DNA from: a virus
DNA length: 24,464 bases
Direction: 5' to 3' (one strand)
Virus record (IMG/VR): IMGVR_UViG_3300021349_000230
Coordinates: 1 to 24,464 of that record
Of this stretch, positions 15,483 through 21,721 are shown piece by piece. The notes beneath the pieces are model-generated. The model did no database searches, was not told the DNA's origin, and saw only the letters and a program-made list of their open reading frames with translations. The translations under genes were made by a program, and so were the position numbers. Within the stretch, counting starts at the first letter, position 1, and each line of letters begins with the position of its first letter.

Positions 15483-15668
15483 CTACAGTGGAAAAGCCGT
15501 GAAGTCGTCAGGGCTGTCGGTCTTTCTTTTGATCGTGTATTCAACAAGAATAACCTTATTATCCTGTATTTTAAGGACAATTTCGCCCATTTTTATCTGC
15601 CTCGCAAGACGGATAATTTCTACCCATTCAAGAGGAATCGCTTTTACTATTTGTGGTTGTTGATTCAT
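15483..15668 (-). CDS. Small DUF2292-like protein
   Basis: 61 residues. The segment LARQIKMGEIVLKIQDNKVI followed by LVEYTIKRK resembles the DUF2292 pattern (a short helix, then G-x-V-x-I-x-I-x-D-G-x-V and a basic tail), a small family of unknown function common in bacteria and phages. Its ATG overlaps the TerL stop (ATGA), so it is translated with terminase. The function is unknown; the family link is from memory. Confidence 0.65.
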   Translation of the reverse strand: MNQQPQIVKAIPLEWVEIIRLARQIKMGEIVLKIQDNKVILVEYTIKRKTDSPDDFTAFPL

Positions 15669-17116
15669 ATAAGCCCTACTACTTCAGGATTTTGCATTCC
15701 TTGTTGCACTAGTCCAAGGACGAGATACACGAATGCATCGACGAGGTCATCGTGTTCTTCTACTCCGAATCCAAGAAGTTGAATCAGCAAGTCCTCACAT
15801 CCTTTTCTTGGAAATACAATCGTGCCGTTTTGGATGTATACGGCAATCGCTCGAAGTCTTGCTCTTTTATCTGTTCCTGCACGCATCGCTATAACTGGCA
15901 AGAGTGCGCGTTCCATTTCTTCAATCGCTGCACGTTGATACTGCACATCTTCAACGAAAAACATTCCGAATGGATTTGCGACCGCCATCGCTTTTGTTGT
16001 TTCGATTGTCTCGTGGAATGAAAGTCGTGCATTGATCGGATTTGGTTTGATGTAGATCTTTGGCATACCGTCTTTTACAAACGATGTGCCTGACACCATA
16101 GATGTATAGTCTGCGGTTTCTTTTTTTGAAATCGCAAGATCTACTCCGGTGCCGTGCAGTCCGCCTTCAAGTTCAGGAGGAATTTTGTCATAGTATTTTA
16201 TCCATTCCTCATGTACGTCGGCACCTTCTTCGGGTACAACTTTCAGTAGATACTCTCGTTGGTACGCATTGAGCCCTACTTTGTCTCGTTGAATATCGAG
16301 TGCTTTTTGGTCGGGATATTTTGCAAGCCACATAATTTTTCCGTTCTTCACGAGTGGATAGTCGAGCTGCTTGAATGTCTTGTCTCGTTTCAATCGTGCC
16401 ATAAGTGCATCGGTGTGGAGTTGATTTCCAATTACTACAAGCCTGCCAGTCGTTTCGTCAATTGCGGGAATTACTTCACCTCTTAACCATCGCTCTGTTT
16501 TGTCACGATTTTCTTTTGTACGCACCCATTCCAAATCTTCAGGGTCATCTACTACCACGAGTTTTGGGCGATGCTGTTTATGACGTAATCCACGAACCTT
16601 CTGTCCTCGGGACCGAGCAAGAATACGCACGCCGTTTGATAGAAGCATATTCTTGGCCTGCCATTCTTCTTCGCTCTCAAGAGTCCAGTCTGCTACGAAG
16701 TTTCCTTTTATCTCTCCGTAGTCTTGTTTGATGAGTGGATTATTTTCTAGTTCTTCTTTGATGTTGGCAATGTTCAGACTCGCTTGCATTCCTGTGTCTG
16801 CAATCGGGATGATGAAGTTGTAAAATTCTGGATACTCAAGAGCAGCCCACAATGGCAGTGCTAGTGATCCGAATGTACTTTTTGCACTTCCACGGAATCC
16901 GACTATCTCTACCATCTTCTCTTTGTGATCGCCAAGTGTTGCTAATAATTCAGGATGAAATGATGCCGGTTCACGATCAAGATAATGCGAAAGATACACC
17001 AGACAAAATCCAGTGAATGTTTTTGAAAGTGACCGGCGAGTGGAATTTTCGTCAAAAAATTCATTTTTCCACCACTCCGGTTTTAGTTGGTTCGATTGTG
17101 ATGGTAGTTGGTTCAT
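15665..17116 (-). CDS. terL: Terminase large subunit (DNA-packaging ATPase/nuclease)
   Basis: 483 residues from the start at 17116 (MNQLPSQSNQLKPEWWKNEF); an ATG 8 codons earlier (17140) is also possible. ATPase domain: Walker A GFRGSAKST (73-81), Walker B LVVVDDPED (186-194), coupling region LVVIGNQLH (226-234). RNase H-fold nuclease: GTGVDLAISK (Asp326), MFFVEDVQYQ (Glu389/Asp390) and HDDLVDAFVY (Asp456-457, Asp460). It cuts concatemers and pumps DNA into the prohead at the portal. It overlaps the small-subunit gene by at least 56 nt, which is unusually long. All catalytic motifs are present. Confidence 0.93.
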   Translation of the reverse strand: MNQLPSQSNQLKPEWWKNEFFDENSTRRSLSKTFTGFCLVYLSHYLDREPASFHPELLATLGDHKEKMVEIVGFRGSAKSTFGSLALPLWAALEYPEFYNFIIPIADTGMQASLNIANIKEELENNPLIKQDYGEIKGNFVADWTLESEEEWQAKNMLLSNGVRILARSRGQKVRGLRHKQHRPKLVVVDDPEDLEWVRTKENRDKTERWLRGEVIPAIDETTGRLVVIGNQLHTDALMARLKRDKTFKQLDYPLVKNGKIMWLAKYPDQKALDIQRDKVGLNAYQREYLLKVVPEEGADVHEEWIKYYDKIPPELEGGLHGTGVDLAISKKETADYTSMVSGTSFVKDGMPKIYIKPNPINARLSFHETIETTKAMAVANPFGMFFVEDVQYQRAAIEEMERALLPVIAMRAGTDKRARLRAIAVYIQNGTIVFPRKGCEDLLIQLLGFGVEEHDDLVDAFVYLVLGLVQQGMQNPEVVGLI

Positions 17117-17648
17117 GAGGTAGTGCTTCTTTTGGGACAATGCCCCAATTCACGAATGCTTTGAGCATCATCGCTTTCAACTCCGGTGGCAATGGTCTAT
17201 TGCGTTGTTCTATTTCAATTGTGCCGAGGTGTCGCTCAAACAATCCGGCATCAAGTTCTGCATTGAATACCATGACATCAAGTCTCACGATTGAGTTGAT
17301 AGCGTTGATTTGCTCTCTGATGCTTGGCGGTGTGAATCCTTCCTTTTTCATTTCATCGCTGTAGTAAACAATTCGCATGAGGCGCTCAAGCATGAGACGA
17401 TTTTTTTCTTTCATCTCTGCCACTCGCTCGCTGACTTTTGCACGGTCAGTTTGTTCTACTGTATTGCGATGTACTTTGTGTTTTAGTTTTTGGACATAGC
17501 GCCAATCAAGAACGGTTGAATTGGCACTTCGGTATCCTTTTTCAAACAATGCATCCTGAAGTTTTGTAATCGAAATAAGCGGGTCAACCACTAAGATGTC
17601 CCGAATCGCTCTTTTTATTTTTTCTTCTTGAAGTGGTGATTTTTTCAT
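17061..17648 (-). CDS. terS: Terminase small subunit
   Basis: 195 residues. The N-terminal part (IKRAIRDILVVDPLISITKL followed by QDALFEKGY) is a helix-turn-helix-like DNA-binding module, as expected for a protein that recognises the packaging site. The middle is a long helical, charged region (ERVAEMKEKNRLMLERLMRI) suitable for oligomerisation. The C-terminal segment (LPPELKAMMLKAFVNWGI, then TTITIEPTKTG) could bind the large subunit. It starts 33 nt after the C5 methyltransferase stop and overlaps TerL. The call relies on position before TerL and domain order. Confidence 0.78.
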   Translation of the reverse strand: MKKSPLQEEKIKRAIRDILVVDPLISITKLQDALFEKGYRSANSTVLDWRYVQKLKHKVHRNTVEQTDRAKVSERVAEMKEKNRLMLERLMRIVYYSDEMKKEGFTPPSIREQINAINSIVRLDVMVFNAELDAGLFERHLGTIEIEQRNRPLPPELKAMMLKAFVNWGIVPKEALPHEPTTITIEPTKTGVVEK

Positions 17649-17681
17649 ACCGGCTTATTCGTGGTTATTTTGAAACGGAGC

Positions 17682-18779
17682 TTATTTTTCAAGGAATAAC
17701 CTAGTCACGACTTCGCGTATTACGTTGACGGTCACAGCGTTGCCGAGACATTTATATCGTCCTGTATCGCTGATACCTGCCGTCCATCCGTCTGGAAATC
17801 CTTGGAGACGCTCACATTCTATTGGCGTAAGTCTGCGGATCTTTACGCCGTCAAATACGCCATGTTTATCTTGAGCCGTCAGTGTAAAACTAGGCTCATT
17901 ATTCGCTTTCACTCGCCTTCCATTCTGTCTTTTGTTGATACGGTCGGGAGTCAGTACAGGAATCGCGTACAGCCCTGTTTTAGCCCCGACACCGCCCGCC
18001 TGACTGGCCAATGTCGTCGATATTCCTTTCGGATCGTACACTCGGTAACCTTGGGACCCGCCAGCGAGTTGCACTAAATCCCAAGCGTGTTTTTTTGTCA
18101 GGCTCCCGCGCCCGCCAGTTCTGATCGTATTTGCGATATTAGTTTCTTTGTTAGTTTCGGTGATAGGAAATATTTTTTGTCTGCGTTCTTTTCTAAGATG
18201 TCCGACAATGAGCACTCTTTCTCTGTTTTGTGGTACCCCGAAGTTTTTACTGTTAAGCACTTGCCATTCAACGTCATACCCCAACTCATAAAGGGTTGAT
18301 AGGATGACAGCAAATGTTTTTCCCTTGTTGTGAGATAGAAGCCCTTTGACGTTTTCAAGGAGTAGAAAGCGTGGCCGCTTCTGTTTAATGATCCGAGCAA
18401 TTTCAAAGAAGAGCGTACCTCTCGTATCTTTGAATCCGAGACGCTTTCCGGCGATCGAAAATGATTGGCAAGGAAAGCCTCCGACGAGGAGATCAAAATT
18501 TGGTAATTCTTTAGGTTTGATTTTTCTAATGTCGCCATAATTTTTTTGTTCTGGAAAATGTTTTTGATAAATAATAATTGCCGACTTTTCAATTTCGGAA
18601 TATCCAACACAAGAGGCACTTGCCCTCCGCCCATTCCCATTGCTGATGTTAGACAAGGACATATTTCTTCCATGATTGCCGCGTTTCTTTGTTGGCTTCC
18701 TATCGCGATAGTTATCATATGCTTGTTGTATTCCGAGTTCGAATCCACCGATGCCTGAGAATAAACTGAAGTACTTCAT
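17682..18779 (-). CDS. DNA cytosine-5 methyltransferase with N-terminal insertion
   Basis: 365 residues. It transfers methyl from S-adenosylmethionine to C5 of cytosine. Motif I FSLFSGIGGFELG (4-16), motif IV GGFPCQSFS (catalytic Cys104), motif VI LLLENVKGL (139-147), motif VIII QNRERVLIVG (184-193), motif IX RRLTPIECERLQGFPDGW and motif X CLGNAVTVNVI. The recognition region holds tandem modules of the type found in phage enzymes (GYRVYDPKGISTTLASQAGG; EPSFTLTAQDKHG). A basic, Gly/Asn/Ser-rich insertion at about 21-56 separates motif I from CVGYSEIEK. The start is at the ATGA junction with the upstream methyltransferase; an ATG 9 codons earlier is less likely. Confidence 0.92.
   Translation of the reverse strand: MKYFSLFSGIGGFELGIQQAYDNYRDRKPTKKRGNHGRNMSLSNISNGNGRRASASCVGYSEIEKSAIIIYQKHFPEQKNYGDIRKIKPKELPNFDLLVGGFPCQSFSIAGKRLGFKDTRGTLFFEIARIIKQKRPRFLLLENVKGLLSHNKGKTFAVILSTLYELGYDVEWQVLNSKNFGVPQNRERVLIVGHLRKERRQKIFPITETNKETNIANTIRTGGRGSLTKKHAWDLVQLAGGSQGYRVYDPKGISTTLASQAGGVGAKTGLYAIPVLTPDRINKRQNGRRVKANNEPSFTLTAQDKHGVFDGVKIRRLTPIECERLQGFPDGWTAGISDTGRYKCLGNAVTVNVIREVVTRLFLEK
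18098..18718 (-). other. Second long open frame inside the C5 methyltransferase gene
   Basis: An open frame of 206 codons from ATG 18718 (216 codons from 18748), in the +1 frame on the same strand. Its start reads MITIAIGSQQRNAA, then CPCLTSAMGMGGGQVPLV, which I recognise as the P-x-L-T-x-x-M-G-x-G-G-G-x-V-P-x-V module usual in the recognition region of phage C5 methyltransferases. Its end, KECSLSDILEKNADKKYFLS, resembles a motif I recall from phage proteins found beside such enzymes. The overlapped frame is certainly the methyltransferase. Whether this frame is translated is unknown; at minimum the first 40 codons appear to be a transposed module now read out of frame. Confidence 0.4.
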
Positions 18780-20044
18780 TGGTTTGCCTGATTTACTCTT
18801 TCCCATCTGTCTCGGATTACGTCACAGAATTTTGGATCAAGTTCAATCATAAATGCACGCCGACCGACTTTTTCGGCTGCTGTCATCGTGCTTCCTGATC
18901 CCGCGAAAGGATCAAGTACGATGTCATTTCTTTTAGTAGAGTTTCTCAATGCTCGCATACAAAGCCAATCAGGTTTTTCTGTTGGATGTAAATAACGAGC
19001 CGTTGCTTTGCGTGGCATTTCCCATACGTCATATTCGCCATCACCATAAAATACATGAGTGCCGACCTTCCATCCGTATATGATGCTCTCGGCAGTCTTT
19101 GGGTCTGGTTTGGTAGCTTTGGCGATCCACTCGTGCTTGTAGCGGTAATCATTCCATCCCATGCTTGGCACATTCTTCACCCAGATAATTACTCCGGAGT
19201 GTCGGAAGCCATTAGCGAGCATGCTTTGCAAGAATTGAGGGTAAGAGCTCCATCCCGAGCAGATATATAGGGACCCGCCTTCTTTGATGTTAGTGATCAT
19301 TCCCGAGAATGCACCATCGATAAATGCTTTGAATTCCTCGGGAGTCATATTGTCATTCTTGATTTTCTCGAGTTCTTCATTTTTGAGTTTCTCGCCACGT
19401 GAATGGTAGTTCACGTTATAGGGCGGATCGGTGAATATCATGTCTGCCTTTTCTTTTCCGAGTAGAGCTTTATATACTTCAGGATCGGTTGAGTCGCCAC
19501 AGATGAGTCTGTGTTGACCTAGTTCGTATATTTCTCCAACTTTTGAGCGAGGCTCTTTGGTGTCATCAATCGGTTCTTCTTCGTCTTTTTCTTCGTCGAG
19601 AGTTTGATCAAGAATTCTACTGATTTCGTCCTCTCGGAATCCAGAGGCAGGAATGTGTGGATCCTCCTTTAGTGCTTTTATTATTGTTGATAGTTTTTCC
19701 TCATCCCATTTCCCTTTTATTTTATTCAGAGCAAGGTTGAGAATCTTTTCATCTTCCAACGATAAATTAACGAATGATACTGGGACCGAGTACACACCCT
19801 TATCATCTGATTCAACAATTCCTTTTGGAATAAATCCGCTTGCAATAATTGACTCTAGAGCGCTGAGTCTCTGATGTCCACCAATCAGCACGCCGTACCT
19901 TTCTTTGTTTTCATTTACTACCAACACTTCAACGAATCCGAATGTTTTTATACTTGTCTTCAATGCTTCCATTTCAGAGTCAGGCATAATACGCGGATTG
20001 TAGTCGGCACGTTTTAACTCACTTAGTTTAATTGTTGTCTGCAT
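18776..20044 (-). CDS. ParB-domain DNA adenine/cytosine-N4 methyltransferase (beta class)
   Basis: 422 residues from MQTTIKLSELKRADYNPR; an ATG 5 codons earlier is an alternative. Residues 1-100 are a ParB/Srx-like domain (RADYNPRIMPDSEMEAL; IGGHQRLSALE at 54-64). An acidic linker (DEEKDEEEPIDDTKEP) leads to the methyltransferase: GQHRLICGDSTDPEV, catalytic TDPPYNVNY (DPPY 206-209), LHPTEKPDWL and the S-adenosylmethionine site VLDPFAGSGSTMTAAE (376-391). DPPY before FxGxG defines the beta group, modifying N6 of adenine or N4 of cytosine. This ParB fusion is common in phages. Its stop shares ATGA with the C5 enzyme, so the two are coupled. Confidence 0.92.
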   Translation of the reverse strand: MQTTIKLSELKRADYNPRIMPDSEMEALKTSIKTFGFVEVLVVNENKERYGVLIGGHQRLSALESIIASGFIPKGIVESDDKGVYSVPVSFVNLSLEDEKILNLALNKIKGKWDEEKLSTIIKALKEDPHIPASGFREDEISRILDQTLDEEKDEEEPIDDTKEPRSKVGEIYELGQHRLICGDSTDPEVYKALLGKEKADMIFTDPPYNVNYHSRGEKLKNEELEKIKNDNMTPEEFKAFIDGAFSGMITNIKEGGSLYICSGWSSYPQFLQSMLANGFRHSGVIIWVKNVPSMGWNDYRYKHEWIAKATKPDPKTAESIIYGWKVGTHVFYGDGEYDVWEMPRKATARYLHPTEKPDWLCMRALRNSTKRNDIVLDPFAGSGSTMTAAEKVGRRAFMIELDPKFCDVIRDRWERVNQANQ

Positions 20045-20414
20045 AGCGTGAATCGTCATAGACGAATGTTTTTGCGAACTCGACCCTTTGTTTAAGACCC
20101 TTTATTTTTTCTTTATCTTTTCTTATGCTTTCGTTTATCATGCTGACTGTCTCATCACAGCTCACAATAAATTCTTCGGCTTTAGCAATCTTCGTTTCTA
20201 TCCCTTTGCGTTTTGTACGAGTTATCTTTGTCATATCTTTTGAATCAATGCCGGCAAGCTCAGCTTTTAAATCATCCAGCTCTTTAAATTTGTCGGCTTG
20301 GAGTTTTTGAACGCTAGGAATTTTCGTTTCGTCAAATTCAATGTTTACAGCTTTTCTCCATATCTGATCATTGAGTTCATCTATGAATTTTTCTTGATAT
20401 TGTTTTGTGTCCAT
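20028..20414 (-). CDS. Coiled-coil protein of unknown function
   Basis: 128 residues, almost entirely helical and charged. Heptad-like stretches run from about 35 to 112 (VQKLQADKFKELDDLKAELA; ETKIAKAEEFIVSCDETVSM; KDKEKIKGLKQRVEFAK). No enzymatic motif or membrane segment. It begins 1 nt after the RusA stop and overlaps the ParB-methyltransferase start by 17 nt, so all three are translated together. The function is unknown. Confidence 0.65.
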   Translation of the reverse strand: MDTKQYQEKFIDELNDQIWRKAVNIEFDETKIPSVQKLQADKFKELDDLKAELAGIDSKDMTKITRTKRKGIETKIAKAEEFIVSCDETVSMINESIRKDKEKIKGLKQRVEFAKTFVYDDSRYADNN

Positions 20415-20415
20415 A

Positions 20416-20832
20416 TTAAATATCTAGGGTTATATCAATTTCGACGCGACCTTTTCCGTCTGGTGAATAATTTGATTCAAAGCTACCGTCGAGAAATTTG
20501 TCATTTTTGAAAAGAGCATCAGCTAGTCCTTTGAAGATGTTGTCGGGATCTCCATGTATACCGTTCATCCAAAAGATGCGGATATCCATGCGAGCTTTTG
20601 ATGCCGCACTAGTTTTGAATGGCTGTAGATCAGTTAGTAGTGTATTACCGGCTCTCATCAAATAAGCCGGATATTCTCCGTAGAAAGAACGGCGAGCATA
20701 GCTTTTCCATGCGTTGTATTTTTTAGCTTCAGGCAACCAGAGAGCACGTTTGACGACTCGGGTATATGGTATTGGATTGCCGTGCCAGTCGTCTTGGTTT
20801 CCTTTGATTACGAATGATAATTTTTTAATCAT
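20416..20832 (-). CDS. rusA: RusA-type Holliday junction resolvase
   Basis: 138 residues from MIKKLSFVIKGN; an ATG 11 codons earlier is less likely because it would extend into the preceding gene. The family pattern is clear: an N-terminal strand (KLSFVIKGN) with P-x-T-R (PIPYTRVV), then DIRIFWMNGIHGDPDNIFKG and LADALFKNDKFL, with the conserved acidic residues Asp95, Asp97, Asp105 and Asp111 that bind the metal. It cuts four-way junctions, clearing branched DNA before packaging. It overlaps the replication gene by 8 nt (ATGATTAA). Confidence 0.9.
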   Translation of the reverse strand: MIKKLSFVIKGNQDDWHGNPIPYTRVVKRALWLPEAKKYNAWKSYARRSFYGEYPAYLMRAGNTLLTDLQPFKTSAASKARMDIRIFWMNGIHGDPDNIFKGLADALFKNDKFLDGSFESNYSPDGKGRVEIDITLDI

Positions 20833-21721
20833 GTGATTTTGGAATATTAATAATAAAAGTTGCAAACTTATTTTTTAATTCTTCAATTTTTTGTACGAGC
20901 TCCTTGCTCTGCTCAGTAGGTCTGTGATGGAACCTTTGAGAAAGCGAATCAAGCTCTTTCCAAAATTTTGAACCGTTCCTCATTTCATTAAGGAGCGAAT
21001 TGAAAACTGTTGAGGATAAGAATGTGCTGATGCTTGGTGAGAGGCCTCTGAATTGTTGCGATCCTAGAAAATATAGGATCAACTTTTCAAAGTCTTGCTG
21101 ATTGAGAATTTGTAAATTTAGAGCACGTTTTAGATTCCATGCATCTGCTTTGGTTATGATTATTGATACCCCTCGAGACTGTTGTGCAATTGCATGAAAA
21201 TAATCAACTAGTTGCGCATGGATGCTTCTTTCTTTTTTGAATGCAGTCTTTGACTGCGATCTACTTTCTTTCTCTTTGTTTCCTAGGTTTTGTGTGTTCA
21301 CCTGCTGAACCGCTTTCGGTATAGTAGCTGAACCACTTTTGGTATGGCCACTATACTGGTTCACTAGCTGAACCACTTTCTCAATATCCATTTGGAGATT
21401 GATTTGGTAGTAGTTTCCTTTCGTTGTTTCTCTTATTTCTATTGCTCCGGCAAGATTGAGATTTTTTAGTCCTTTGGCGACTGATGCTCGAGCTAGGCCT
21501 GCACCATGATCAAGAACTTTTCCATCCTTTGTTTTTATGCCATCAATAAATTGTGAGAAACTTATGCGATCTGATTCTTTATGGAATCCGAATGTTCTTC
21601 TGCAGATATACAAGAGACATCTTGCTTCCGCTTCAGGTATTCGGCACACGACAAAATCAAGGATCACATTTGGGACCTGTGTGCTATTTGGTATTAAGTT
21701 GTGAAGTTTTGGTTCATCCAT
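20825..21721 (-). CDS. Replication initiator-like protein (phage O-type N-terminal domain)
   Basis: 298 residues. Residues 10-115 form a winged-helix domain like the phage replication protein O N-terminus: STQVPNVILDFVVCRIPEAE, LLYICRRTFGFHKESDRISF, then LARASVAKGLKNLNLAGAIE. Residues 115-160 are a low-complexity linker (VVQLVNQYSGHTKSGSATI, KAVQQVNTQNLG), and its DNA carries iteron-like repeats. The C-terminal half is helical (DAWNLKRALNLQILNQQDFE) and has no helicase motif, so it may recruit the host helicase, as lambda O with P or DnaD-like proteins do. The start follows a structured 228-nt leader. Confidence 0.8.
   Translation of the reverse strand: MDEPKLHNLIPNSTQVPNVILDFVVCRIPEAEARCLLYICRRTFGFHKESDRISFSQFIDGIKTKDGKVLDHGAGLARASVAKGLKNLNLAGAIEIRETTKGNYYQINLQMDIEKVVQLVNQYSGHTKSGSATIPKAVQQVNTQNLGNKEKESRSQSKTAFKKERSIHAQLVDYFHAIAQQSRGVSIIITKADAWNLKRALNLQILNQQDFEKLILYFLGSQQFRGLSPSISTFLSSTVFNSLLNEMRNGSKFWKELDSLSQRFHHRPTEQSKELVQKIEELKNKFATFIINIPKSHD
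21296..21387 (+). repeat. Iteron-like repeats inside the replication gene, candidate origin
   Basis: Three direct copies of GCTGAACC[AG]CTTT begin at 21304, 21327 and 21367 (spacing 23 and 40). The first two continue into GGTAT. Two copies are also half of a palindrome with a 5-nt spacer: GTTCA-CCTGC-TGAAC (21296-21310) and TGGTTCA-CTAGC-TGAACCA (21357-21375). The array codes for the low-complexity linker of the replication protein. In lambda the origin iterons lie in the O gene in the same way. Origin function is an inference. Confidence 0.6.

Follow-up and report, generated by a model that had tools for sequence, protein, structure and literature searches.

A gene under purifying selection in the +1 frame of a viral C5 cytosine methyltransferase gene, and its probable role as a partner subunit

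The window analysed here, a viral contig of 24,464 bases taken at its full length, contains a C5 cytosine DNA methyltransferase gene (alpha) within which lies a real overlapping gene (beta) in the +1 frame. The beta frame is under strong purifying selection from its ATG to its stop, both in the group of relatives around the window and in four other clades. On sequence comparison, the C-terminal tail of beta corresponds to a hinge segment found in the main reading frame of single-chain C5 enzymes, and we infer that beta is a partner subunit of alpha.

The methyltransferase gene and its second frame

The two genes and the motifs of alpha are placed as follows.

17682..18806, minus strand: alpha, C5 cytosine DNA methyltransferase, 374 aa, motifs I–X in frame (PF00145, phrog_116, alignment with M.HhaI)
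18465..18473, minus strand: alpha motif IV (PCQ, catalytic cysteine), invariant in relatives
18348..18356, minus strand: alpha motif VI (ENV), invariant in relatives
18216..18227, minus strand: alpha motif VIII (NRER); the beta tail, in the other frame, lies just downstream
17814..17834, minus strand: alpha motif IX (RLTPIEC), from the M.HhaI alignment
17733..17744, minus strand: alpha motif X (GNAV), from the M.HhaI alignment
18098..18718, minus strand: beta, overlapping +1-frame gene, 206 aa from its ATG (dN/dS, start point, four-fold sites, shuffles, phrog_16143)

Alpha matches the PF00145 profile over positions 1–322 of 324 (1.4e-86) and phrog_116 at 1e-103, and carries motifs I, IV (PCQ), VI (ENV), VIII, IX and X in order; its alignment with M.HhaI spans motifs I–VIII, IX and X. 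The PCQ, ENV and QxRxR residues, plus those of motifs IX and X, are invariant in 22 relatives. On its upstream side alpha adjoins a ParB/N6-N4 methyltransferase gene (18776–20059, minus strand), and downstream lie an unassigned 195-aa ORF and then the gene for the terminase large subunit (15665–17140). The gene order RusA-like resolvase, ParB-N6/N4 methyltransferase, C5 methyltransferase, 195-aa ORF, terminase large subunit (15665–20865) is kept in the relatives L002 and L082, and phage phi1207.3 has a similar order of ParB-methylase, C5 methylase and terminase (PMC4260502). L082 is in a Candidatus Nomurabacteria MAG, as assigned by binning; thus, the host may be a candidate-phylum bacterium.

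The +1 frame of alpha is open from 18098 to 18748, which gives 216 aa if read from a GTG; the first ATG lies at 18718. Synonymous codons were permuted within alpha, with the protein and the codon counts fixed (2000 permutations); the longest +1 run at the window, 225 codons, exceeded all of these shuffles (0/2000; mean 76, maximum 184), and the +2 frame was as the shuffles predict. The +1 frame was longer than in shuffles in 26 of 26 loci (P<=0.0165, most <0.0005). The close relatives (L002, 90% identical in alpha; L082, 86%; also L003 and L083) all keep the beta frame and the beta stop.

The +1 product of the window matches phrog_16143, the MM1-type beta, at 6.1e-27, as do all 32 aligned beta proteins, and, as in the phrog_16143 type, beta is a +1-frame ORF within a full-length C5 methyltransferase gene. 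The overlap was found in many Bacillota phages and integrated elements, in an archaeal virus and in probable candidate-phylum phages. Beta is also kept in streptococcal chromosomal copies (L087–L122, possibly Tn5252-like elements), which indicates that the overlap is not restricted to phages.

Beta, including its central part, had no relative in searches of PDB, Pfam and NCBIfam; with no Pfam or NCBIfam model for beta, gene callers give one frame or the other. The deposited annotation of four loci (L160–L163) names alpha in two and beta in the other two: in Pseudomonas phage VB_PaD_phPA-G (L161:1791-2519) and Vibrio phage 1.236.O (L163:1785-2483), the beta-type frame is deposited as a hypothetical protein, and the catalytic alpha frame is unannotated. 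The phrog_1008-type proteins of these two phages seemed to be standalone, and both proved to overlap an alpha frame; a phrog_1008 search of seven host genomes gave two marginal matches only.

Selection on the two frames

Third positions of alpha diverge by 0.06–0.17 per codon inside beta vs 0.39–0.45 beyond the beta stop (three complete close relatives). Upstream of the beta ATG (codons 10–28), dN/dS is 0.03 for alpha and 1.20 for beta; across the insertion in alpha described below (codons 30–63), it is 2.33 for alpha and 0.11 for beta. In the body of the overlap the values are 0.09 for alpha and 1.00 for beta, and synonymous changes in alpha fall to 0.23 per site, compared with 0.58; in the beta tail they are 0.51 and 0.37, and past the beta stop 0.07 and 1.82, respectively. 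The long middle of beta evolves along with alpha and has a naive beta dN/dS of about 1; the case for constraint on beta there comes from the suppressed third positions and from the column tests given below. Changes fall at alpha position 3 as far as approximately codon 32, and then at alpha position 1 (which is beta position 3) through the insertion; this switch of phase lies just past the beta ATG (Fisher P 0.0005), and is a pattern that recombination or an RNA element would not explain.

Divergence at four-fold sites is 2.4–6-fold lower inside beta than past it in five phage and element clades (each pair gives the value inside beta, then the one past it):

Enterococcus: 0.070/0.352
S. suis type: 0.156/0.530
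MM1 type: 0.211/0.502
Strep_B (second streptococcal set): 0.069/0.409
Window group: 0.173/0.442

Among the 185 beta columns, 39 are more conserved than in every one of 200 shuffles, including columns that are variable in alpha (at alpha codon 222, the majority residue has a frequency of 0.23 in alpha, and L one of 0.77 in beta); in this test, no part of beta is better preserved than its tail.

The earlier note, which was made from the DNA sequence alone, had described a +1 frame open for more than 200 codons inside the methyltransferase and had raised a genuine overlapping gene as one possibility. Both have held: the openness is beyond chance, purifying selection acts on the frame, and essentially every relative keeps it open. 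The note had also placed the SLSDILE motif in phage proteins encoded beside such enzymes; no standalone beta was found among the loci with frames checked (protein search of GenBank phages, profile search of IMG/VR), and 43/43 further beta loci, from IMG/VR relatives, overlap an open alpha frame with at least two of PCQ, ENV and RER. The note had named two observations that would jointly speak against its proposal; one was made (no homologues of the +1 product outside frame-shifted methyltransferase genes), and the other, frequent stops in that frame in relatives, was not.

The hinge segment and the N-terminal module

Three further features lie within the overlap or at its edge.

18137..18211, minus strand: C-terminal hinge segment of beta, SLSDILEKNADKKYFLSPKLTKKLI (SLSDILEKNADKKYFLS..KLI) (shuffles, hinge homology, model)
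18618..18719, minus strand: insertion in alpha, codons 30–63, between motif I and CVGYSEIEK, evolving as coding sequence of beta (dN/dS of the two frames)
18608..18661, minus strand: beta module CPCLTSAMGMGGGQVPLV, of the segment type that precedes motif IX in in-frame enzymes

In other C5 enzymes, a hinge LKDVLE..VDEKYFLS follows motif VIII in frame; in a group of single-chain C5 methyltransferases, LKDVLESEVDEKYFLSDKM occurs in frame approximately 30 residues downstream of where motif VIII begins. The profile of this hinge aligns with that of the beta tail with an hhalign probability of 98.7 over 27 columns. In 21 of 22 loci, none of the synonymous shuffles reached the score of the real beta tail. 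In the window, alpha has no in-frame hinge (best score 6), and across the beta tail the alpha sequence (GHLRxxxxxxKVFPI) varies more than that of beta. The match to the in-frame hinge and the variability of alpha at this place speak against the suggestion of the note that the SLSDILE tail (SLSDILE..KYFLS) may have begun as an overprint of motif VIII.

Enzymes with the +1 tail have an open +1 frame and no in-frame hinge, and those with an in-frame hinge lack the +1 tail and show 3–7 +1 stops in the stretch from motif IV to motif VIII; the in-frame-hinge controls come from few lineages, and the exclusivity of the two hinge states applies within this sample. In L298–L307 and L311, which have an in-frame hinge, the +1 frames are closed by 3–7 stops (P 0.26-0.99); thus, the alpha motifs alone do not force an open +1 frame. 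In the simplest history, the hinge DNA would have shifted frame relative to motif VIII, and the upstream +1 frame would then have become, or would already have been, translated. In L182 (2501-3200) and L203 (959-1540), similar inserts (ATEGELNDLMFFH and VTEGVLDDQMFFL, respectively) break beta right past ...NECSLS, and in L182 the hinge returns as SLSSILEEHVDPKYFLSEKM in the alpha frame approximately 220 codons later; these inserts may represent an insertion element located where motif VIII meets the hinge.

The insertion between motif I and CVGYSEIEK, which the note had pointed out, is real and occupies the same place in L002, L082 and the distant L037. In the alpha frame it changes fast and is predicted to be unstructured, with residues 40–61 of alpha at pLDDT <50. 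Read in the beta frame, the insertion gives MITIAIGSQQRNAAIMEEICPCLTSAMGMGGGQVPLVLDIPKL. The note was also right about the kind of module encoded there, which is seen in phage C5 methyltransferases in frame directly before motif IX (NGISPCLTSAMGMGGGQTPV...RIRKLTPLEC in L174/L299, where the in-frame segment is GGLQDNQPFQTNGISPCLTSAMGMGGGQTPVHNYQQRIRKLTPLEC; similar segments occur in L171, L177 and L184–L190). Its proposal that the module had jumped and landed out of frame does not fit, since the module is in frame with beta, the constrained frame at this place; judging from the dN/dS values, alpha merely tolerates the insertion. Related but different modules occupy the same place in the beta frame of L037, L182 and L183. 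Because modules differ at one place between the window group and these loci, beta might be an overlapping, exchangeable specificity subunit, such that phages swap recognition modules into the beta frame within the catalytic gene, and the choice of target is set or widened by the overprinted protein; we put this forward as a tentative idea that is probably not correct.

In an AlphaFold2 model of isolated beta (pLDDT 52 overall), the tail alone is confident, forming short helices, and the rest is predicted to be mostly unstructured.

A two-protein reading, its alternatives and known systems

The locus probably encodes two proteins: a full catalytic alpha, and beta, a 206-aa product of the +1 frame whose translation begins inside the alpha gene. 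As a subunit, beta would bind alpha, supply the hinge in trans, and complete the DNA-binding small domain; its N-terminal module, of the pre-motif-IX kind, would also contribute to target recognition. By analogy with M.EcoHK31I, in which alpha needs its beta, alpha of the window would need beta for efficient methylation. A two-polypeptide C5 enzyme is plausible because M.AquI and M.EcoHK31I work as two polypeptides, although alpha, with motifs I–X, might work alone, which counts against beta as a partner.

The completeness of alpha would also suit a beta that is a real protein but has a separate job, as a regulator of the enzyme or an anti-restriction or host-takeover factor; its hinge tail would then be a relic or serve only for docking on alpha. 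The lack of database matches to the central part of beta and its predicted disorder are also consistent with this; however, the best-kept part of beta is the tail, which replaces exactly the element missing from alpha, and no beta was found apart from a methyltransferase, and we therefore regard a separate job as unlikely. A programmed +1 frameshift in alpha, giving an alpha–beta fusion or a truncated alpha and no separate protein, would find a parallel in L064, in which alpha stops past motif VIII and the +1 frame carries the hinge and motifs IX and X, such that one shift would join them. Nevertheless, we consider it improbable, since beta constraint begins sharply at the ATG in the window group, and ribosome-binding sites upstream of beta ATGs are enriched over shuffles overall. 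Many of these ATGs are preceded by a ribosome-binding site made of alpha codons (e.g., AAAGGAGAAATTGAATTACATG in MM1), and the summed score across 35 loci was 136 vs a maximum of 130 in 200 shuffles, with single loci rarely significant; no clear Shine-Dalgarno sequence was seen upstream of the beta ATG in the window group.

It is very hard to sustain a reading with no second protein at all, according to which low synonymous divergence reflects recombination or an RNA or DNA element, and the +1 frame is open as a side effect of the conserved alpha motifs. These motifs do limit how the +1 sequence can vary, and shuffles retain part of the beta similarity; however, one pattern recurs in five clades, with its edges at the beta start and stop and in the +1 phase, and in-frame-hinge C5 enzymes that are alike in their motifs have normal, stop-filled +1 frames.

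Support this strong is rare for long same-strand overlapping genes in prokaryotes and phages, and here the overlap is with a catalytic domain. The overlap itself had already been noticed; our literature search, which was incomplete, found no earlier report of selection on beta, of how widely it occurs, of its relation to the hinge or of modules in its frame, and we regard the proof of selection, the breadth of the overlap, the proposed supply of the hinge in trans, and the exchangeable beta modules as new. Should activity depend on beta, many methyltransferases of phages would seem inactive when expressed and assayed alone. The locus also offers a clean test case of a protein segment moving between reading frames with its function kept.

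In the window type, alpha carries every motif and beta is short. The closest known counterparts are those of Streptococcus phage MM1, the 5093-group and Tn5252, in which, as in the window, a full-length alpha contains an internal +1 ORF ending SLSDILE..YFLS; the MM1-type beta is the founder of phrog_16143, the family matched by beta of the window. ORF13 and ORF14 of MM1 correspond to alpha and beta, and ORF14 is deposited as a C5 methyltransferase beta subunit; for the 5093-group phages of S. thermophilus, C5 methyltransferase products encoded in different frames were described as overlapping completely, and MM1 and Tn5252 were cited in this connection (PMC5601072). The window group differs in that alpha is approximately 37% identical to the MM1 type and belongs to a different viral lineage, and in that beta has a longer N-terminus (the module) and a start lying further upstream, without the ribosome-binding site of MM1.

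The single-chain phage enzymes L074, L174, L298–L307 and L311 share the catalytic motifs and hinge sequence of the window system, and L174 and L298 also have the pre-motif-IX module of the window beta; in contrast to the window, hinge and module are in the own frame of alpha, and the +1 frame is stop-filled. As for enzymes of two polypeptides, Lee et al., in 1995, reportedly found the small polypeptide of M.EcoHK31I to be encoded in another frame inside the large one, and in this respect the second polypeptide of the window is alike. The M.EcoHK31I plan is shown by L160–L163, in which the +1 frame, open over all or nearly the whole length of alpha, contains EWLMGWPxGWT, which resembles motif IX. 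In L160–L163 this openness covers most of alpha or all of it. M.AquI (CYCGRG) and M.EcoHK31I (YGGCCR) are both C5 enzymes of two polypeptides (PMC3404938). In M.EcoHK31I, motif IX is missing from alpha and supplied by beta (PMC3404938), whereas alpha of the window has its own motif IX (RRLTPIECERLQGF) and beta has no such motif. The beta of M.AquI comprises half of the variable region and motifs IX–X (PMC3404938), which are lacking from beta of the window, and, unlike the large subunit of M.AquI, which ends past motif VIII, alpha of the window carries motifs I–X. By their sequences, L064 (3001-3889) and L147 (3001-4000) look similar to M.AquI and appear to be naturally split C5 methyltransferases: alpha ends past motif VIII, and an overlapping +1 ORF carries the hinge and a recognition region, to which L064 adds motifs IX–X.
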